DNA from: Deltaproteobacteria bacterium
Lineage (GTDB): Bacteria; Myxococcota_A; UBA9160; UBA4427
Assembly (NCBI GenBank): GCA_029261855.1
Contig: JAJDAN010000089.1
Location: 1 to 64,000 of the forward strand
Reading direction: 5' to 3'
DNA: 64,000 bases
A program made the position numbers and the translations under genes. This document shows, in pieces, positions 18,124 through 32,810 of this stretch. How positions within the stretch are numbered: position 1 is the stretch's first letter; each line of letters starts with the position of its first letter. The notes under the pieces were generated by a model, which did no database searches, was not told the DNA's origin, and worked only from the letters and a program-made list of their open reading frames with translations.

Positions 18124-20736
18124 TCAGACGGACCCCGCTCGAGACCGTGCCCGCTTGCTGCGTGACATCGCGACCAGCGCCGCGAAGCCGGTCAACCACT
18201 GGGCGAGCGCTCCCGGCTCGGGCACGTACTCGACCCTGAGCGAAACACCGCCCGCGTTGTCCTTGGCGTCGTCCTCGATCACGGAGAACCAGACGTTCTG
18301 ATCTACGGTCAGCACGAGGTTCAGCACCTTGTTCGACGTGTCGTCGAAGGCCTGCATCGGGGTCGGTGACGACCCGACGGGGATGCCAGCCGCGAACGGT
18401 CCCTCGATCTCGGTATCCACGCGATACGCAGTGCCCCAATCGATCAACGGACCCTCGAACGTTTCCGGGCCCGGGCTCCAGGCCGTGAACCTTGCCGTCG
18501 GGTCGAGCGTCGGGTTGACGAGCGTCACGATATAGATCCCAGCCTCGAGCATCGTGCAGAGCTTGTGTTCGTTGGTCGAGCCCAGCCGCCCGCTGAACCG
18601 GGTCGCGTCGACGTTGAGTGTCCGCGGCAGCAGCGGGATCACGCAGCCCACCTCGTTGTGGATCTCCTCTGCGAGCAGCGCGCGGTCGTAGAACTTGAAA
18701 TCGTCGATCAGCCCGTGGAAGCCCCGAGACAAGGTGGTTGCACCGCTATCGCGCAGGATGCCGACGGCGACAGGGTCCGGCGGGCCCGCCGGCTCGAGCA
18801 CTCCGGAGTTCGTCGTCGAGATCGAGTCGTCGACGACCATCAGTCCGTCGACGTAGAGCTGTGCCCGCTTGAGATCGCTGTCGCGCAGCAGTGCCAGGTG
18901 ATGGGGCTGCCCGTCTGCGAGCGAAACGGCGCCCGGGGCCGGGCCGAGCACGGTCGCGGTCGGACCGAACTTGTCGCGGAAGAAGGCCGTCGGATGACCA
19001 TTCACATCGAGTCGAAGACCCCAGGCCGAGAGGTTGAAGCCGCCCAGCCCGCCGGCATCGGAGAGGTTGACCACCTCCGTCACGGTGCCGGGCTGGAGCG
19101 TCGTGGTCTCGATCCACGTGGCGACTGTGAACGAAGCGTCGGGGTAGAACTCCGCGCCGGGAATCTCCACCCATTGATTACTCGCCTCATCGAGCGAGAA
19201 GGCCTCGCCGAACACACCGGGATCGGTGCTGGCACCGTTGCGGAGCGTGCCCTCGTTGTCGCCGGCCCAGTCGGCAGCATTGAACTCGCCCTTGAAGCGC
19301 CCGACGAGACCCGTCCTCGAGAACAGCGGCTCCGCGAGCGGGGCGCAGACGACGCTGACTTCGAGGCTCCACGGATCGTTCGTCGGGATGACCTCCTCGG
19401 CCTCACCGGTCCACCCGATCGGGAGGTCGGGGTTCAGGAACTCCTGGGGGTAGATCCCGCGCAGCACGGTCTGGGTGTCGGCGCCGAGGATGCGGGCCCC
19501 GCCGCTGATCGGGTACGTCTCGGCCGGGCAGACGACCGTGTACGCCTTCGGCGACGTACTGTCGCTGGCTGTCGCCTCGGTGAGCCGGTGGAAGCCGGGC
19601 ATGTCGCTGCAGCTGAGATTCATCTCCTCGGACCAGGCGCCGGCGGGGATGCTGAAGTTGCGCAGCTCGACCTGTCCCTCGGTCTCCGAGACCGGCCCCA
19701 TCGCGCGCAGCGCCAGCCGTTCCGATTGAACGAACGCTCCGACGACGTGAACCGCGAGGATCGGGTACGGGTCGGAGCACTCGTCGGTACCGGTCTTGAC
19801 CGCGTTCGTGCCGGACAGCGTCGGCTCTTTACCCGACGTCGATCCGGGGACTTCGGCGCACACCACGCTCACGCGTAGCTCCCACTCCTCGTCGGTATCG
19901 AAGATCTCCCGCGCTTCGGCTTCCCAGCCGGGCTCGGTCCCGTTGGAGCGTTTCCCGCTCCGGCGCAACCCGATCATTCCATCGGCGCCGATGATCTCGA
20001 CGCCGCCTCCGATCCCTACGTTCTGGCAATACGAGCCGACGGTCTGCTCGTCTTGGGACGAGGCCCCGCCGATCGCGAAGGAGTCCTTGTAGATGTATTG
20101 ACGCACTTCGACGACGAGCGGATGGAACGCGGAGAGCACCAGGCTCTCGATTTCCGAGCTACTCGATTCGAGGGCCGACAGGTCGCCGAACCGGAGCACG
20201 TTGCCGGGCGGACCGGAGATCCCGAGGTCGTCATAGGCCGCTGAGACGGCGGGTGCGCCATCGACCTCGAGGGACACCCCGCCCCCATCGACCTGGAGCC
20301 GATAGTCGTGGAATCCGTCCGTCGTCACCATCGCGTGAAGACCCGACTCACCCACGCCGCCGGAAATGAACGCGCCCGTCTCTCCCACGTAGAGCGTGAC
20401 CATTCGGCGCCCCGAGTCGACGAGCGTGACGCCGAACCCGGCGCGTCCCGCGCCGCCACCGGGCGGGTTCAGCGTGGAAGCCACGATCTTCAACCGGAGG
20501 TCCACGACCATCTCGTCCCGGTCGAAATCGAAGATGGGAGGTACGCTCTCGTACCACTGGGTGTTCCCGGGGTCTGTGTTGGGCCCCCCGGTATCGCCCT
20601 GCACGAGCGCGCTCACGACGACCGAGTAGTTGCCTTCGGTCAGCAGGTCGTTCGGGGGCGGATCGGTGAGCTGGTGGACGAAGCCTTGCGCGCTCGGCAG
20701 GGAGCCGAGCGAGGCGTCGTACCCATGGCTCCACAT
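18124..20736 (-). CDS. PEP-CTERM protein with LamG-like domains
   Basis: An exported 870-residue protein (from the first ATG). An N-terminal beta-sandwich (about 10-190) precedes two related Cys-bracketed modules, roughly 235-305 (SYCQNVGIGGGVEIIGADG ... SVVCAE) and 400-470 (VVCPAETYPISGGARILGAD ... SVVCAP). A LamG/concanavalin-like domain (about 485-700) follows, then a PEP-CTERM tail: VPEPGALAQW, a hydrophobic helix and Arg/Lys-rich end, the exosortase/EpsH sorting signal. The 25 codons directly upstream in this frame encode a good signal peptide but have no start codon (see next entry). It is probably anchored and processed at the envelope or in exopolysaccharide. No exosortase gene is in the window. 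Confidence 0.85.
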   Translation of the reverse strand: MWSHGYDASLGSLPSAQGFVHQLTDPPPNDLLTEGNYSVVVSALVQGDTGGPNTDPGNTQWYESVPPIFDFDRDEMVVDLRLKIVASTLNPPGGGAGRAGFGVTLVDSGRRMVTLYVGETGAFISGGVGESGLHAMVTTDGFHDYRLQVDGGGVSLEVDGAPAVSAAYDDLGISGPPGNVLRFGDLSALESSSSEIESLVLSAFHPLVVEVRQYIYKDSFAIGGASSQDEQTVGSYCQNVGIGGGVEIIGADGMIGLRRSGKRSNGTEPGWEAEAREIFDTDEEWELRVSVVCAEVPGSTSGKEPTLSGTNAVKTGTDECSDPYPILAVHVVGAFVQSERLALRAMGPVSETEGQVELRNFSIPAGAWSEEMNLSCSDMPGFHRLTEATASDSTSPKAYTVVCPAETYPISGGARILGADTQTVLRGIYPQEFLNPDLPIGWTGEAEEVIPTNDPWSLEVSVVCAPLAEPLFSRTGLVGRFKGEFNAADWAGDNEGTLRNGASTDPGVFGEAFSLDEASNQWVEIPGAEFYPDASFTVATWIETTTLQPGTVTEVVNLSDAGGLGGFNLSAWGLRLDVNGHPTAFFRDKFGPTATVLGPAPGAVSLADGQPHHLALLRDSDLKRAQLYVDGLMVVDDSISTTNSGVLEPAGPPDPVAVGILRDSGATTLSRGFHGLIDDFKFYDRALLAEEIHNEVGCVIPLLPRTLNVDATRFSGRLGSTNEHKLCTMLEAGIYIVTLVNPTLDPTARFTAWSPGPETFEGPLIDWGTAYRVDTEIEGPFAAGIPVGSSPTPMQAFDDTSNKVLNLVLTVDQNVWFSVIEDDAKDNAGGVSLRVEYVPEPGALAQWLTGFAALVAMSRSKRARSRAGSV

Positions 20737-24755: not shown

Positions 24756-25598
24756 GTGAGCCTACTCCGACCCTTCCCGCTACTCGCAACTCTCACGCTC
24801 CTTGTCTGCGGACCCGGCGCCTCCGCCGGCTCGCTGGTCGCCTTGGACTACAGCAGTCCCAGCAGCAGTGGCTCCAACGCCTATCGGATGGACACGGCCA
24901 CCGGCACGCGATCCCTGATCGGGCCGGTCGGCTTCGCCGGACTCAACTCAGCGGCCACGGGGCTGGACGGCTCCATCTACTCCGTCGGATACGTCCTCGG
25001 CACCTTCACCCGCCACCTGATCCAGATCGATCCGCAGACCGGAGCGGGCACTTCGGTCGCACCGATCACGCCTTCCAGCCCCTGCGGCGTCTGCTCGACG
25101 GAGATCGGCTCGCTCGCCATTCATCCGACCACGGGAACCGCCATCGGGTCGTGGGCCGGCGCCCGCTATGAAGTCGACCTGGTCACCGGAGCGCTCTCGG
25201 CGCTCGCTCCCCTGAGCGGTGCGAGCCGGATGCAGGGGATGACGTATTCGCCCGACGGCGTGCTCTGGGGTTGGGATCTCGACCTCGGCCTGGTGACGAT
25301 CAGCGCCTCGGGCGCCGCGACCGACGTCAACCCGCTGGTCGGTGCCGATGCGGACATCCAGAGCATCGAGTTCAAGAATGGCGCGCTCTACGGCGCCAAC
25401 GGCAACTTCTTCCAGATCGACACGGAAACCGGCGCCAGCACCGACATGGGCTGGCTGGGCTTCATCAGCATTCGCGGTCTGGCGTACGTGCCCGAACCCA
25501 GCAGCTTCGCGCTCTGGCTTTCGGGCGTGGTGCTGGCCGTCGGCGCCTCCCGCACGCGGGCCGGCCGCGGCGCGGGATCGCGGCGGTCTTCGAGGTAG
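24756..25598 (+). CDS. PEP-CTERM protein, propeller-like
   Basis: A 280-residue exported protein: signal peptide (about 1-24, LLATLTLLVCGPGASAG), then repeated beta-strand segments of WD/NHL-like type (YRMDTATGTRSLIGPVGFAG, LIQIDPQTGAGTSVAPI, YEVDLVTGALSALAPLSG, FQIDTETGASTDMGWLG), each carrying an [IL]D-x-TG-A motif. It ends in a PEP-CTERM signal (YVPEPSSFALWLSGVVLAVG plus an Arg-rich end). The start is a GTG. The second exosortase-type substrate in the window; both lie within 7 kb. Its job is unknown, but such propellers usually form surface or extracellular-matrix proteins. Confidence 0.85.
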   Translation: MSLLRPFPLLATLTLLVCGPGASAGSLVALDYSSPSSSGSNAYRMDTATGTRSLIGPVGFAGLNSAATGLDGSIYSVGYVLGTFTRHLIQIDPQTGAGTSVAPITPSSPCGVCSTEIGSLAIHPTTGTAIGSWAGARYEVDLVTGALSALAPLSGASRMQGMTYSPDGVLWGWDLDLGLVTISASGAATDVNPLVGADADIQSIEFKNGALYGANGNFFQIDTETGASTDMGWLGFISIRGLAYVPEPSSFALWLSGVVLAVGASRTRAGRGAGSRRSSR

Positions 25599-27642: not shown

Positions 27643-28119
27643 TCAGGGAGTTGGAGTCGAGCGGCTGTTGGGATGACGTGGGCTCGGTCGAAGATCGGGG
27701 TCTCGGAGCAGCGCGCCTTTGATGATCGTCATCTCTTCGAGAGCCATGTCATCCAGGATGAGTTCTACGAGGCTGCGCAGCTCGTCGGCGATGACCGGCG
27801 CGGGTCTGTTCAGGTCTCGCAGGCCGGACAGGATGTAGCTCAGGACCTCGCGCTGCTCCCGGTGATCGTCGGCGAGCCGCCTCGAATGCTCGATCCCCGC
27901 AAGGCCGGCTGCGCGCAGCGCTGGCGCCAGGAAGCGATCTTCGAAGGCCAGGTGCTCGGCGAACCTCAAATGGAATGAGAGTCCCGATTCGCGAAGCGCG
28001 GAAATTTCGTCCTCGTGACCCTTCAGTACCCGGAACGCGCTCTGATCGAGCTCGTCCAACATGCCCCTGAGAAACGCGTGATCCGTGAGGATGTGCTTCC
28101 GGATTTCACGAGGCTTCAT
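27643..28119 (-). CDS. Hemerythrin-like HHE-domain protein
   Basis: A 158-residue four-helix protein of the hemerythrin/HHE cation-binding family. Candidate iron ligands are His14 (TDHAFLRG), His50, His56 and Glu60 (FHLRFAEHLAFED), and His86 (DDHREQ); a late LDDMALEEMTI replaces the usual HxxxxD, so the site may be altered. The ATG at 28119 is chosen because GGAGGGCGACTCA precedes it; an ATG at 28134 is in frame too. A run of 14 C (minus strand) stands just upstream. It is the last gene of the molybdoenzyme operon and could sense or scavenge O2 or NO for it. Confidence 0.8.
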   Translation of the reverse strand: MKPREIRKHILTDHAFLRGMLDELDQSAFRVLKGHEDEISALRESGLSFHLRFAEHLAFEDRFLAPALRAAGLAGIEHSRRLADDHREQREVLSYILSGLRDLNRPAPVIADELRSLVELILDDMALEEMTIIKGALLRDPDLRPSPRHPNSRSTPTP

Positions 28120-28139
28120 TGAGTCGCCCTCCATCTTCC

Positions 28140-28153
28140 GGGGGGGGGGGGGG
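28140..28153. repeat. Homopolymer of 14 G
   Basis: Fourteen consecutive G on the plus strand (C on the minus strand), 21 bases before the hemerythrin-like start codon and outside any called gene. Long G/C runs are prone to slippage and can vary expression by changing promoter or leader spacing. Confidence 0.95.
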
Positions 28154-28298
28154 ATGGGTCGCAAGTGCTGGTTCAACTTTTCGGCGTTTTCGTTCACCTC
28201 CTTGAGGGGCGGACTGGCGGGTTCCGGTTCATTCATTTGCCGCTGGGCCCGACGCCTCCAGTAGAGGCCCGCGACGGACCACGGGTTTCTTCTACGCA

Positions 28299-29210
28299 CT
28301 ACCCCGGGCTCCCCACCCCCTCGGCGGCAACGAGCGGTACGTACACGCCGGCCTTCACGATGCAGTATTTGACATAGAAGTCTCCCACGAGCGATGCGAG
28401 GCCGATCGCGCCTAGCAAGACCAGCTCGGGGAGGCCGAGGGCATCGCGCGAGAGGGCGAGGGCGATCGGAGCCACGATGCCAGCGAGTACGGTGCCCCCA
28501 TAGAAGGCCGGCGAGATCCGGCCCGCCACCAGTTGGGCGACCGACTCGCGCGCGGCGCCGCCCGACCGAGTGCTCGAGACGAGGTAGAGAAGAATCAAGA
28601 CCGCGGTCGAGACGACGACCCAGAGCTTGATGACCTCGACTGCGCGGACATCGAAGCCGCTGCCTCCGAAGGCGGCGACCGCCAGCAGCAGGGCGGCCCC
28701 TCCGCGCAGCCCGTATGCGATGTACAGCACAGGAAGCAGTCGGGTTCGCCAGAAGGGGATCGCTCGCGAGGCTGCATAGACGAAGCCCTCGTAGAGCAGA
28801 ATCGCGGTGGCCGCGAGGACGGAGAGTCCCAGCACGACCGGAGCCGCCGCGCTGTCTCGAACAGCGGGCAACATGCTGGCCACTGCGGCCAGCCCAAAGA
28901 TGCCGATCGACCAGATGCCGCGACTGATCCAAGACTGGTGCGGACGCCGGAGCATTCGCCAGAAGCGGTCCCAACGACCGAGGAATGCCATGTGAGCGAC
29001 GCCGGAGAGTCCGATCACGCAGCCGATCGCGAGCGCCTGGCCCATCGGGAAGTCATAGAGGGTTGACCAGAGCCAAGCGCCTGCACCGATGCCCGAGAAG
29101 AAGTGCGCGATGACGATCAGGAGCCCACGGCCGTCGATCCACTCTCGCTGTGGTCGGTAGACCTGTGAGAGGTCCTGTCTCTGCAAGTCGAGTCGGTCGG
29201 GAAAGGCCAT
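28299..29210 (-). CDS. NrfD-family membrane subunit
   Basis: A 303-residue integral membrane protein with about eight hydrophobic helices, of the NrfD/PsrC polysulfide-reductase family, the quinone-reacting anchor of complex iron-sulfur molybdoenzymes. An opening PQREWIDGRGLLIVIAHFFSGIGAGAWL is characteristic. The ATG at 29210 has AGGGGAGACG upstream, and the reading before it is a short tandem repeat. It follows the FeS subunit by 52 bases. With the catalytic and FeS subunits it should pass electrons between quinone and substrate across or at the membrane. Confidence 0.9.
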   Translation of the reverse strand: MAFPDRLDLQRQDLSQVYRPQREWIDGRGLLIVIAHFFSGIGAGAWLWSTLYDFPMGQALAIGCVIGLSGVAHMAFLGRWDRFWRMLRRPHQSWISRGIWSIGIFGLAAVASMLPAVRDSAAAPVVLGLSVLAATAILLYEGFVYAASRAIPFWRTRLLPVLYIAYGLRGGAALLLAVAAFGGSGFDVRAVEVIKLWVVVSTAVLILLYLVSSTRSGGAARESVAQLVAGRISPAFYGGTVLAGIVAPIALALSRDALGLPELVLLGAIGLASLVGDFYVKYCIVKAGVYVPLVAAEGVGSPG

Positions 29211-29235
29211 CGTCTCCCCTGTTCTCCAGTCGATG

Positions 29236-29267
29236 CGTTCACCCATTCACCCGCTCACCCGCTCACC
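29236..29267 (-). repeat. Four 8-base tandem repeats (GGTGARYG)
   Basis: Minus strand: GGTGAGCG twice, then GGTGAATG and GGTGAACG, in register between the FeS gene's stop (which lies in the first unit) and the NrfD start. Each unit offers a GGTGA ribosome-site-like core. Confidence 0.8.
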
Positions 29268-29874
29268 TATCGGGCGGCAAGTAGTAGACGGAGGGGTCCG
29301 TGCCGAGTTCGGGGTTGAGCTGGAACCCGCCCTCCTCACGGATCAGCCGGCTCACCTCGCTATTCGGGTCCTCGAGATCTCCGAAGATGCGGGCCTTGCA
29401 CATGCAGTTCGCCGAGCAGGCAGGCTCCTGTCCTTGCTCGAGCCGGTGCCGACAGAAGTCGCACTTCTCGACGACGCCGGCCTGATGGGCAGCGTACAGA
29501 GCCTGCTCGTACTCGTTCTCGCCCGTGTCGAAGTAGTCGCGCTGCTCGTCCTGGAAGTAGCGCGCGCCGTAAGGGCAGGACATGACGCAGGCGCGGCATC
29601 CGACACAGAAGTCGGACTCCACGAACACGATTCCGTCCTCGCTGCGCTTCTGACTCGCACCCGTCGGACACACTTCGACGCAGGGCGGCTCGGCGCAGTG
29701 CATGCACAGCACCGGAATCGAGAGCTTCTTGACGTTCGGGTAGACGCCCCACTCGCGCTTGACGACCCGCGCGTAGGTCGTTCCCGGACGCGTGCCGTGC
29801 TCGGCCTTGCATGCAATCTGACAGCCATAGCAGCCAATGCAGCGCTTCAGATCGATGACCATGCCCAGTCGCAT
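29263..29874 (-). CDS. Four-cluster ferredoxin subunit
   Basis: A 203-residue PsrB/DmsB/NrfC-like electron-transfer subunit. Sixteen cysteines fall in four ferredoxin-type groups: CIGCYGCQIAC (Cys12, 15, 18, 22), CMHCAEPPCVEVC, CVGCRACVMSC, and the last CDFCRH...CSANCMC, enough for four 4Fe-4S clusters. No Tat or Sec signal is present. The ATG lies one base after the TGA of the catalytic subunit, with GGAGGCCTGA overlapping it. It links the catalytic molybdopterin subunit to the NrfD anchor. Because neither catalytic nor FeS subunit has an export signal, the soluble part should face the cytoplasm. Confidence 0.93.
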   Translation of the reverse strand: MRLGMVIDLKRCIGCYGCQIACKAEHGTRPGTTYARVVKREWGVYPNVKKLSIPVLCMHCAEPPCVEVCPTGASQKRSEDGIVFVESDFCVGCRACVMSCPYGARYFQDEQRDYFDTGENEYEQALYAAHQAGVVEKCDFCRHRLEQGQEPACSANCMCKARIFGDLEDPNSEVSRLIREEGGFQLNPELGTDPSVYYLPPDR

Positions 29875-29875
29875 T

Positions 29876-32470
29876 TCAGGCCTCCGGGACCTTCTGCACG
29901 CGCACGCGCGCGTCGCAATCCATCGAGAGCGAGACGAGGTCCGTGTGCTCGAGATCCATCGGGAGCAGCTGGTTGAAGAAGACTCCCTTCCCACGCGCAA
30001 ACGGCATGCCTTGGGCCCAGTGCCCGCCGTTATTCGCCACGGCGAGAACCTCGGGGTGGACGCCCTGGGTGAGCCTTGCCCGCCCGCGAATCGTTCCACC
30101 GTCGACACCCTCCACTTCGATCGGATCGCCGTCGGCGATCCCCTTGGCGTGCGCGGTGGCGGTGTTGATGCAGACGAAGTAGCTGTACGGCTCACCGCGG
30201 GAAATTTCGTCGAGCCAAGGGTTCTCGTAGGTCATCGAGAAGGTGTGCCACGGCACCCGGTAGTAGATGGCTTGCAGGTCGTAGCCGTCGCGGGGCTTCC
30301 AGGCACGGCACGGCTTCCAGTCCGGAAGCGGTACGAAGCCTTCCGTATCGATGCCCTTCATGCCGCGCTCCTGGGCGATCTTCGCGACCTGCTCGCCAGA
30401 GCGCTTCACCCACTCGTTGTAGAGCGGCGCCCGCGCGTGGATGAACGGCTTCCAGTAGACCTCCTCGACCTTCTTCGGCCACGTGATGACGCCTTGCTCC
30501 TCGAACCAATCGAGGCCCCTCTCCTCGCCGAACCAGCCCTTGTAGGCATGGTCCGCGATCTCGCGCCAGGTGTACTGCTCGTCCGGCGCCAGAGCGTGGG
30601 GGGCCACCAGCCCGTAGAGATGATTGGTGAGCAGGTTCATCGGCTCGGTGATCCCGAGACGCCCGCCGAGCTCGAGGAGGACCTCCGAGAAGTGTCGACG
30701 CTCGAAGAGCGGCTCGACCATCGGCTGGCGGATCGTATGGCCCCAGTCGCCCATGCCGACCGGGTGATGATGCCGGGTGAAGTTCGGAATCGGATCGAGG
30801 CGCTCCAGGTAGCTGGTGTCGGGAAGAACGATGTCGGCCAACGCCTCGGCGGTCTCATCCGAGTGGAGGTTGAAGCAGATGACGAACGTGTCCTTGAAGG
30901 CCTCGAAGCAGACCTCTGGCCGCGCCGCGCTCATCAGCAGGTTCGATCCGTAGTTGATCAACACTTCCGGTCGATGGTCGAACGAGAAGTTCTCGTGATC
31001 GTTGAGGGCGGCTGGCGTGAAGCAGGTCGTGATCGGCCAACCGACGAGGTCGCGCAGGTTGGGCAGCTCGGCGCTAGTCGGCGGGGGGGGCCAGCCGGGC
31101 GACCGGCCATGCGGGTCGTTGTACAACAGGGCGCCTGCCTCCAGCAGCCCGTCGACGTCGGCGCCAGGCTCCCAGCGCGGGAAGCCCGTTTCCGGATGGC
31201 CGAAGCAGACGGGGTTCGTCCCGAGCAGCCCGCCCGGCACGTTGCTCGCGCCGATCACCTCGTTCAGCAGCTCGATGGCGAGCGAGGTCGACCAGGCGTT
31301 GTCGTGGCCGTGCGCGCCCTTGAAGTAGAGCGCCGACGCCGCGCGGTGCGGCAGCTCCTGGCCGTCGATCACGATCGTCTTGCCGATCGACGCGGCCTCG
31401 CCGAACTCGCGCGCGATCTTGCGAATGGTCTCGGCGGAAACCGTCGTGACTTCCGCGGCGGCCTCGGGCGTCCACTTCGCGACCTGCTCTCGCAACGCCC
31501 GGAACACCGTTCGGCACGGCCGGCCATCAACCTGATACACGCCGTCGAGGGCGACGGTGCCGAGGTCGGTGGCGTCGAACGGGCGTGCGTACGCTGCGTT
31601 CGCGTCCCACACGAGCGGGCGGCCGCTCTCACGATCGCGGGCATACCAGCCGTCCTCGGTCAGCAGATAGGGTCCGTCCGCGTGATCGCGCAGGTAGTCG
31701 GCGTCGTAGAGCTCGTACTCGTTGAGCAGTAGGTTGAGCATCGCGCAGGCGAGTGCACCGTCGCTGCCGGGCTTGATGGGCACCCACTCGTCGGCCTTCT
31801 CCGCAGCGGACCCGAGGAACGGGTCGATGGCCACGACCTTCATGCCGCGGATGCGTGCATCGGCGACGTCCTGGGCCATGGTAGTGAGTGCGTAGTACGT
31901 GCCGAGGCCTGCCTGGCAGCCGAATAGCAGCAGGTAGCTGCAGTGGGCGACGTCGGGGTTGGTGGTGACGGAGGCGTGTAGCGTGCGGGCGAGGATGTGC
32001 TCGGCGTTCCCGCAGTGATGGCCGTCCGACACGAAGCTGTTCGGGGTTCCGAACGCCGGGAGGAACGTGCCGAGAGCGTGCATCAGCGGCGCCAGAGAGA
32101 TCACCGTGCCGGCGAAGTAGAGACCGCGGGGGTCTTCCTCCCGCACCGCCTTCAGGCGGGTCGTAATCTCGTCGAGCGCCTCGTCCCAACCGATCTCCTG
32201 CCAGCCGGGGTCGCCGCCGATCGCCTTCTCGGGGTTCGTGCGGCGAAGCGGTCGGTTGACGCGATGGGGATCGTAGAGGAGCTGGATGCCGGCGAGCCCA
32301 CGGGCACAAAGGCGACCGCGGCCGATCGGGTTGTCGGGATTGCCCTCGACCTTGACGAGCGTTCCGTCGATCCGGTGGCCGCGAATGCCGCACTGGTTGT
32401 AACACATGCCACAGGCGCTCGGGATCCAGGTGTCTTCGTATACTTGCGAAGCTGCTTCGGTCGTCATCAC
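29876..32470 (-). CDS. Molybdopterin oxidoreductase catalytic subunit
   Basis: An 864-residue DMSO-reductase-family enzyme with bis-MGD Mo or W. An N-terminal 4Fe-4S site is Cys20, 23, 27 and 55 (CGMCYNQC and GRLCARG). Cys153 in SDGHHCGNAEH aligns with the metal-ligating Cys of polysulfide/thiosulfate reductases; that assignment is my alignment by eye. The C-terminal cofactor domain (about 740-864) includes CINTATAHAKGIADGDPIEV. No twin-arginine signal is present, unlike PsrA/PhsA. It is second in the operon MoaD-like/catalytic/FeS/NrfD/hemerythrin. Sulfur-compound, aldehyde or acetylene-type chemistry are all possible. Confidence 0.9.
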   Translation of the reverse strand: MMTTEAASQVYEDTWIPSACGMCYNQCGIRGHRIDGTLVKVEGNPDNPIGRGRLCARGLAGIQLLYDPHRVNRPLRRTNPEKAIGGDPGWQEIGWDEALDEITTRLKAVREEDPRGLYFAGTVISLAPLMHALGTFLPAFGTPNSFVSDGHHCGNAEHILARTLHASVTTNPDVAHCSYLLLFGCQAGLGTYYALTTMAQDVADARIRGMKVVAIDPFLGSAAEKADEWVPIKPGSDGALACAMLNLLLNEYELYDADYLRDHADGPYLLTEDGWYARDRESGRPLVWDANAAYARPFDATDLGTVALDGVYQVDGRPCRTVFRALREQVAKWTPEAAAEVTTVSAETIRKIAREFGEAASIGKTIVIDGQELPHRAASALYFKGAHGHDNAWSTSLAIELLNEVIGASNVPGGLLGTNPVCFGHPETGFPRWEPGADVDGLLEAGALLYNDPHGRSPGWPPPPTSAELPNLRDLVGWPITTCFTPAALNDHENFSFDHRPEVLINYGSNLLMSAARPEVCFEAFKDTFVICFNLHSDETAEALADIVLPDTSYLERLDPIPNFTRHHHPVGMGDWGHTIRQPMVEPLFERRHFSEVLLELGGRLGITEPMNLLTNHLYGLVAPHALAPDEQYTWREIADHAYKGWFGEERGLDWFEEQGVITWPKKVEEVYWKPFIHARAPLYNEWVKRSGEQVAKIAQERGMKGIDTEGFVPLPDWKPCRAWKPRDGYDLQAIYYRVPWHTFSMTYENPWLDEISRGEPYSYFVCINTATAHAKGIADGDPIEVEGVDGGTIRGRARLTQGVHPEVLAVANNGGHWAQGMPFARGKGVFFNQLLPMDLEHTDLVSLSMDCDARVRVQKVPEA

Positions 32471-32507
32471 GGCGGATCCCCTCTCGCGGCGAGCTAGTTG
32501 TGTAGGC

Positions 32508-32810
32508 CTAGCCTCCCATCATCGGTGTCAGAACCACGACGGTGACGCCCGCGTCCGATCCGTTCGCAGGCACCACGGGCTGATCGAGCGTGACCAGCAT
32601 CTCGCCGTCCACGAACAGACGGAGGTGGCGGGGAAGCCTCTCGTCGGTTGAGTCGAGCGCGCGACGGAACGGATCGCCGCAGCGCTCGGCCAGTGCGTGG
32701 AGGAGGTCGCCCGCATTCCCACCGTTTCGCAAGGTGAGCCCGAACGAGCTGCGCGCCGGATCCATCTCGCAGCTCCGGACACCGCCGTGCAGCTTGACTC
32801 GGACTCTCAT
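32508..32810 (-). CDS. MoaD/ThiS-like sulfur carrier
   Basis: A 100-residue ubiquitin-like protein ending in Met-Met-Gly-Gly, the C-terminal Gly-Gly that is thiocarboxylated in MoaD and ThiS. The predicted strands MRVRVKLHGG, RHLRLFVDGEML and GVTVVVLTP fit the beta-grasp fold, and NAGDLLHALAERCGD is its helix. The ATG follows GAGGAAGGGGCCCGC. It is first in the molybdoenzyme operon, 37 bases before the catalytic subunit, suggesting a dedicated molybdopterin (or tungstopterin) sulfur supply. Confidence 0.83.
   Translation of the reverse strand: MRVRVKLHGGVRSCEMDPARSSFGLTLRNGGNAGDLLHALAERCGDPFRRALDSTDERLPRHLRLFVDGEMLVTLDQPVVPANGSDAGVTVVVLTPMMGG

Follow-up and report, generated by a model that had tools for sequence, protein, structure and literature searches.

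A conserved MoaD–MopB–FeS–NrfD operon that points to a cytoplasm-facing, quinone-linked molybdo- or tungstoenzyme

The stretch of DNA analyzed here, called the window throughout, comprises 64,000 nucleotides (positions 1 to 64,000 of contig JAJDAN010000089.1) from the Deltaproteobacteria bacterium assembly GCA_029261855.1. On its minus strand, running from 32810 to 28299, lie four closely ordered genes with intact open reading frames, encoding a MoaD-like sulfur carrier, a catalytic subunit of the dimethyl sulfoxide (DMSO) reductase family, an iron–sulfur (Fe-S) subunit, and an NrfD-type membrane anchor; a gap of 179 bases separates nrfD from a hemerythrin-like gene. The original prediction had placed these five genes in this order, and all five minus-strand frames are borne out with Pfam or fold support:

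32508–32810, minus strand: MoaD-like ubiquitin-fold sulfur carrier; open reading frame of 100 amino acids (aa) ending in PMMGG
29876–32470, minus strand: MopB/DMSO-reductase-family catalytic subunit without a signal peptide; 864 aa, GTG start
32012–32014, minus strand: codon of Cys153, the predicted molybdenum (Mo) or tungsten (W) ligand, from the alignment with PsrA (2vpw)
29263–29874, minus strand: Fe-S electron-transfer subunit without a leader; 203 aa, Fer4 domains, four four-cysteine motifs found by reading the sequence
28299–29246, minus strand: NrfD/PsrC-type membrane anchor with an expected quinone site; 315 aa, PF03916 E-value 2.5e-15
27643–28119, minus strand: hemerythrin-like gene, a neighbor outside the conserved unit; 158 aa from the ATG at 28119, PF01814 E-value 5.4e-9

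The catalytic subunit belongs to the DMSO reductase (MopB) superfamily, all three of its domains scoring above the Pfam cut-offs (Molybdopterin PF00384, 78.6 bits against 24; Fe4S4 PF04879, 50.2 against 22.7; Molydop_binding PF01568, 38.6 against 26.8). It passes no curated NCBIfam cut-off, the best model being PhsA with 230.5 bits against 694; these cut-offs are a poor test of membership, that of PhsA being reached in none of 140 genomes of the phylum and even the Arx-type protein of locus L112 scoring 438 against the 1600 set for ArrA. The predicted structure (pLDDT 88.1, pTM 0.91) has several nearest folds that are effectively tied, namely PsrA (2vpw, Z score 31.0, root-mean-square deviation 3.0, 682 aligned residues), ArrA (6cz7, 30.6), acetylene hydratase (2e7z, 30.2), and formate dehydrogenase (8j83, 30.2), with ArrA 6cz7 as the top Foldseek match. 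Cys153, flagged in the original prediction for checking as a metal ligand, occupies the expected position: it aligns with the cysteine of PsrA 2vpw that we take to be the metal ligand, and a cysteine stands there in 32 of the 33 aligned rows, including four from Eggerthellaceae/Coriobacteriales. The N-terminal cluster keeps its four cysteines in all 33. The one row with Gly in place of the ligand cysteine comes from L055, a locus in which MoaD was not found, and may reflect loss of the metal ligand.

The Fe-S subunit begins with MRLGMVIDLKRC and carries no leader; its best NCBIfam model is DsrO (194.8 bits against a cut-off of 200), and ArrB gives 191.5 against 450. The anchor exceeds the NrfD family cut-off (PF03916) in a Pfam search of the window proteins. 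MopB, Fe-S, and NrfD proteins thus all stand in one operon, which is the composition of a complex iron–sulfur molybdoenzyme with an NrfD-like anchor. The genome is 7.0 Mb long and holds 13 PF00384 genes, the window's catalytic gene counted.

Among 97 genomes (the window's own and 96 relatives), the catalytic subunit has four orthologues besides that of its own genome, at 76–86% identity, and the next best hit is a local match at 37%; among 377 genomes of the phylum (E-values up to 1e-40), there are five full-length orthologues, own included, and four partial matches at 37–40%. All five genomes of this phylum sample that hold the catalytic subunit hold all four genes, the contig of L045 ending within nrfD. 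A scan of GTDB contigs seeded by the alignment of the five sequences returned 46 loci. Our core set consists of 32 loci (the window; L042–L045, which equal L050–L052 plus L080; L053–L076; L081; L083; and L084), and the remaining 15 scan loci are more distant, at 25–34% identity. The core loci are labeled as Myxococcota or Deltaproteobacteria, Chloroflexi/Dehalococcoidia, Nitrospinae, Rokubacteria, or Gamma- and Betaproteobacteria, or simply as "bacterium".

The neighborhood was counted with profiles seeded by the window proteins and run over every open frame of the loci. MoaD is present in 21 of the 32 core loci, immediately upstream of the catalytic gene in 18 of them, 3' of nrfD in L057 and L059, and farther upstream in L083; its profile scores are bimodal, 25 rows (four duplicates counted) falling at E-values of 3.2e-18 or below and the next at 2.1. 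The Fe-S and NrfD genes are each found in 23 of 32, several contigs being cut. Because it recurs across phyla, this gene set goes beyond chance. The hemerythrin-like gene behaves differently. The original prediction had included it in the system, and we drop it as a functional partner: it occurs in one core locus of 32, the window itself, although a seed of the window protein alone could miss a divergent hemerythrin; 20 other loci extend at least 1 kb beyond nrfD, and none of the three close relatives whose contigs run past nrfD (L042, L043, and L044) has it. The conserved unit is therefore the four genes, with the hemerythrin as a bystander.

The catalytic subunits of the core also group together in trees. 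In a quick tree of 85 rows, 28 core-family rows fall together with support of 98, and in a more careful tree (42 rows, 675 columns), 17 core rows are joined at 81/75, and 13 rows, which include the window and leave out four basal ones, at 100/99. The rows that stand nearest outside this group are the Eggerthellaceae proteins, another copy from L063, and a protein of a Sporomusa plasmid. Neither tree contains assayed PsrA, PhsA, ArrA, or SoeA sequences. The references are labeled by other means: L147 as SoeA-like by gene order with a DmsC/YnfH anchor, L111 as SoeA-like by its 67% identity to L147 over the tree columns, and L112 as Arx-type by its ArrA-model score, an ArsR neighbor, and the identity of its strain. 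With these labels, drawn from gene order, likeness, and strain, approximately unbiased (AU) tests reject a clade joining the core to the two SoeA-like rows (p 0.00026) or to the Arx-type row L112 (p 0.00037); the tested groups were named after the first tree had been viewed, which makes the p values look stronger than they are. Proteins matching the PhsA model at 409–525 bits, below its cut-off of 694, make up a starred clade of their own in these trees, which lack assayed PsrA and PhsA. On this evidence, the catalytic subunit and its relatives from Myxococcota, Chloroflexota, Nitrospinota, Rokubacteria, and Pseudomonadota appear to belong to a lineage that contains no member of the included reference set. 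The distinct clade that had been proposed from the window alone is thereby supported; among the references used, the core does not nest within a well-characterized clade with periplasmic members, its nearest outside group being the Tat-exported (twin-arginine translocation) Eggerthellaceae proteins. Separately, many frames of ~1000 aa in the relatives match catalytic residues 42–361 at ~33% identity; four that were sampled (L016, L017, L018, and L022) group with NarG, a placement suggesting that type II DMSO-reductase-like proteins form an expanded family in the order.

Two kinds of evidence bear on the side of the membrane. Inspection of the sequence upstream of the catalytic domain revealed a twin-arginine motif with a hydrophobic leader in none of the 32 core loci; an RR-x-[FLIVMA] string occurs in four core rows (L053, L056, L074, and L083), where it was judged to precede the likely start and to lack a hydrophobic stretch. 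The Eggerthellaceae/Coriobacteriales relatives have a clear Tat leader in four cases out of four. The core Fe-S subunits shown have no leader either and start at or near their first cluster motif. The second line of evidence is the charge of the anchor. The window NrfD has 19 Lys and Arg residues on the side of its N-terminus and three on the other, and over homologous loops, 23 core anchors have 13–23 against 0–4 (L045 without its C-terminus), a bias that no aligned Tat-linked or Escherichia coli control reaches; the second copies in L063 and L065 have 10 against 2, again with the N-terminal side in excess. According to the positive-inside rule, positively charged loops are cytoplasmic, so both termini and loops 2–3, 4–5, and 6–7 of the core anchor would lie in the cytoplasm. 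In PsrC and ActC, the termini and the quinone site are described on the positive (P) side of the membrane, by the Fe-S subunit, and SoeC is expected to be inverted (PMC8076601); the core anchor would be inverted as is expected of SoeC. The lack of Tat signals and the anchor charge pattern together point to a cytoplasm-facing, quinone-linked enzyme, in agreement with the original prediction, which had noted that no subunit carries a Tat signal and proposed this orientation.

The MoaD-like protein has no Pfam or NCBIfam match at 0.001, so the PF02597 cut-off is not reached, and its profile found no relative among the sequences of the PDB (best E-value 0.96). Its predicted model (pLDDT 79.1) nevertheless matches SAMP1 (E-value 1.2e-4), mycobacterial MoaD, and a CysO complex in Foldseek, with an E-value of 2.7e-4 to a molybdopterin synthase chain and with ubiquitin slightly lower, and the window protein thus combines a predicted beta-grasp fold of MoaD/ThiS type with a C-terminal Gly-Gly. 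Across 20 aligned members, only Gly9 and the Gly-Gly are invariant; the latter is the exact end in 16, is followed by an extra Ala in L044 and L053, and precedes longer tails in L057 and L059. The frames in these last two extend well beyond Gly-Gly, as might arise from a processed carrier or a sequencing error.

The genome has five further ThiS/MoaD-family genes: one fused to a MoaE-like stretch (read from the sequence, without a family search), three beside genes of the aldehyde oxidoreductase (AOR) family, and one elsewhere. All five are more than 20 kb away from any PF00384 gene in this genome. The dedicated carrier of the original prediction is therefore additional to the genome's MoaD–MoaE fusion, and its recurrence in 21 core loci speaks in its favor. 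The operon profile scores the other MoaD proteins of these genomes at up to 39.9 bits, and in a FastTree tree of MoaD proteins, the alignment is too short for firm branches. The same genomes offer a parallel, for in five of them (G000, G014, G018, G054, and G063), there are 18 AOR-family (AFOR_N) matches, five of them from the window's own genome, and a ThiS/MoaD-family match lies no more than 3 kb away from 13 of the 18, below the family cut-off in two cases.

This parallel raises the question of the metal. MoaD genes have been reported as strictly adjacent to AOR genes, with a proposed role in tungsten cofactor synthesis (Iyer et al. 2006, PMC1779556), and an AOR operon of Aromatoleum has two MoaD-like genes and an enzyme that contains W and no Mo (PMC6365974). 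Given this literature and the MoaD genes beside AOR genes in these genomes, the metal here could plausibly be tungsten. In Methylorubrum, W-specific maturation of formate dehydrogenase is assigned to MoeA1, MobB, and FdhD, and a single MoaD is listed (PMC13197769); a private MoaD would therefore be no proof of W, nor would W appear to need one.

Putting these observations together, we think it probable that the MoaD–MopB–FeS–NrfD operon encodes a complex iron–sulfur molybdo- or tungstoenzyme at the cytoplasmic face of the membrane, with a MoaD sulfur supply dedicated to the operon. Cys153 of the catalytic subunit would hold a bis-pterin Mo or W cofactor, at which a substrate would be oxidized (or reduced) in the cytoplasm. 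Five [4Fe-4S] clusters, the N-terminal one of the catalytic subunit and four in the Fe-S subunit, would carry electrons between the cofactor and a quinone near the cytoplasmic side of the NrfD anchor, which would be upside-down relative to PsrC. The operon's MoaD-like protein, loaded as a C-terminal thiocarboxylate, would give pterin sulfur to this enzyme besides the general MoaD–MoaE route. The first steps follow from the family; the electron path, quinone coupling, membrane orientation, and carrier function are what we infer from the arrangement as a whole. We guess that the enzyme acts chiefly as a dehydrogenase on a cytoplasmic substrate, possibly with tungsten as its metal.

Several observations weigh against this interpretation, besides the choice of AU groups after the first tree. 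Near the clade, the deep branches are long, and some have weak support, as the 81/75 for all 17 core rows indicates. MoaD was not found in 11 of the 32 core loci (L055, L058, L061, L062, L068, L069, L071, L073, L075, L081, and L084); in several of them the contig stops near the gene, and three loci (L058, L061, and L075) have full flanks, so MoaD is not strictly required in cis. The topology consists of charge counts with a simple hydropathy cut, and its controls are less orderly than the core. Six Tat-partnered anchors (L088, L089, L091, L092, L109, and L112) have 2–7 against 5–10 Lys and Arg in the aligned loops (2–7 against 6–10 in an earlier alignment), and only the three related anchors L089, L091, and L092 are plainly reversed; E. 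coli NrfD (6 against 6) and HybB (8 against 6) lean clearly to neither side. A count by the helix calls of each individual protein is less clean and partly contrary to the aligned one: E. coli NrfD (5 against 12) and L088–L092 (2–6 against 14–20) are reversed, three core anchors with only seven helix calls (L053, L059, and L061) blur or lose their bias (15:10, 17:7, and 6:12), and the ten-helix anchors of L109 and L112 have more of these charges on the N-terminal side (16:4 and 14:6), for which the extra helices may be responsible. Two loci were dropped from the Tat-linked group, L108 having no twin arginine and L090 being the anchor of a cut catalytic gene whose N-terminus is not visible. L108, on a Sporomusa termitida plasmid, is an NrfD–FeS–MopB–TorD operon without a twin-arginine motif, whose anchor counts 12:2 when aligned and 8:9 by its own calls; it is perhaps another cytoplasm-facing case.

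The uneven controls bear on the alternative of a conventional PsrABC/ArrABC-type reductase, with a catalytic subunit that leaves the cytoplasm by an unrecognized route. The closest solved folds are PsrA and ArrA, the nearest outside relatives are Tat-exported, and the Tat-linked L109 and L112 anchors share the N-terminal lean by their own helix calls; against this stand a Tat count of zero in 32, leaderless Fe-S subunits, and a strong charge bias of the core anchors that is absent from the aligned controls, and we regard such an exported enzyme as very unlikely. A divergent SoeABC-type sulfite:quinone oxidoreductase is another candidate, SoeABC being the single NrfD-family complex for which a cytoplasmic face has already been suggested. 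Its proposed orientation is likewise to the negative (N) side (PMC8076601), and SoeA too is listed with a Cys ligand and a cytoplasmic location (PMC10100899). Yet the AU test rejects a clade with the two SoeA-like plasmid proteins (p 0.00026, with labels from gene order and no assayed SoeA in the tree), and the anchor of the SoeA-like operon is of DmsC/YnfH type, whereas that of the window exceeds the NrfD cut-off, which leaves this identity highly improbable in our view.

The carrier could also serve another sulfur-transfer or protein-modifying role and merely travel with the operon. The fold search, which finds SAMP1 and CysO alongside MoaD and ubiquitin a little below, agrees with such a role, as do the 11 core loci in which the gene was not found and the residues beyond Gly-Gly in 4 of 20 aligned members. 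In 18 of the 21 loci that have it, however, the gene immediately precedes the catalytic gene, and the pairing of MoaD with a Mo/W enzyme is known for AOR (PMC1779556) and repeated in the same genomes; we therefore consider a separate role unlikely and retain a cytoplasm-facing enzyme with its own sulfur supply as the preferred explanation. A bolder extension of it, which we offer tentatively and with more doubt than conviction, is that the operon represents a tungsten lineage of the DMSO reductase superfamily that feeds the quinone pool from the cytoplasm, its private MoaD making or sulfurating the cofactor apart from the general pathway, in parallel to the AOR–MoaD pairs.

Genes around the operon were considered as clues to the substrate and set aside. 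Thiamine pyrophosphate enzymes adjoin it in L053, L063, L065, L074, and L076; the link is weak, the full-length ones differing in their best models. In L063, L064, L066, L072, and L076, the MoaD operon stands beside a divergent operon for a type II DMSO-reductase-like catalytic subunit, an Fe-S subunit, and a NarJ-like chaperone; this neighboring operon, an acetophenone carboxylase (L060), an SBP56 protein (L059), and a SagB-like protein (L054) are too narrowly shared to name a substrate. The SBP56-family gene of L059 (2934–4181) is inserted between the catalytic and Fe-S genes. Elsewhere in the window, the proteins encoded at 18124–20736 (minus strand) and 24756–25598 (plus strand) have C-termini that resemble PEP-CTERM sorting signals.

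How the operon stands to described systems depends in part on the literature. Among the matches listed from a search of titles and abstract starts in the open-licence literature, a MoaD–MopB–FeS–NrfD operon is not described. A MopB tree that includes metagenome-assembled genomes has seemingly novel Cys-ligated branches (Wells et al. 2023, PMC10100899), and the available main text of that paper makes no mention of MoaD or NrfD; the operon lineage may be among those branches. In the available text of PMC8076601, SoeABC is the only NrfD-linked molybdoenzyme described as cytoplasm-facing. A second, unrelated inverted lineage, if true, would test whether the anchor works either way up and what this does to energy conservation, and the linked MoaD would make it testable whether cells maintain distinct early cofactor routes for individual enzymes, as has been proposed for AOR (PMC1779556).

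Among known systems, the Eggerthellaceae/Coriobacteriales MopB proteins (L077, L078, L079, and L082) are similar in sequence, with 34–35% identity over their full length and Cys at the ligand position; they differ in having a Tat signal in all four cases and neither MoaD nor an NrfD match in the locus. AOR is an enzyme family unrelated to the DMSO reductase family. Its clusters with a linked MoaD resemble the operon in placing a private MoaD beside a metal enzyme, also in the same genomes, whereas in the window the partner belongs to the DMSO reductase family and comes with a membrane anchor. ArrABC and ArxABC share the best Foldseek match (ArrA 6cz7) and the sub-cut-off ArrB score of the Fe-S subunit, but they are periplasmic (PMC10100899), and union with the single Arx-type row was rejected. 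PsrABC of Thermus thermophilus (2vpw) has the same MopB, four-cluster Fe-S, and NrfD components, Cys at the ligand position, and a Z score tied with ArrA and others, at 26% identity to the window catalytic subunit in the structural alignment; PsrA faces the periplasm (PMC10100899), whereas the window operon has no Tat signal, different anchor charges, and a MoaD gene, and it lacks both a score above the PhsA-model cut-off and the twin-arginine leader by which PsrA/PhsA/SrrA proteins are recognized. SoeABC, a three-part complex thought to face the cytoplasm (PMC8076601), differs as far as the SoeA-like references go: they fall in a separate clade, and the reference operon has a DmsC/YnfH anchor and an incomplete gene table that contains no MoaD. 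By analogy, the operon would work like an inverted PsrABC, and its nearest functional parallel would be SoeABC.

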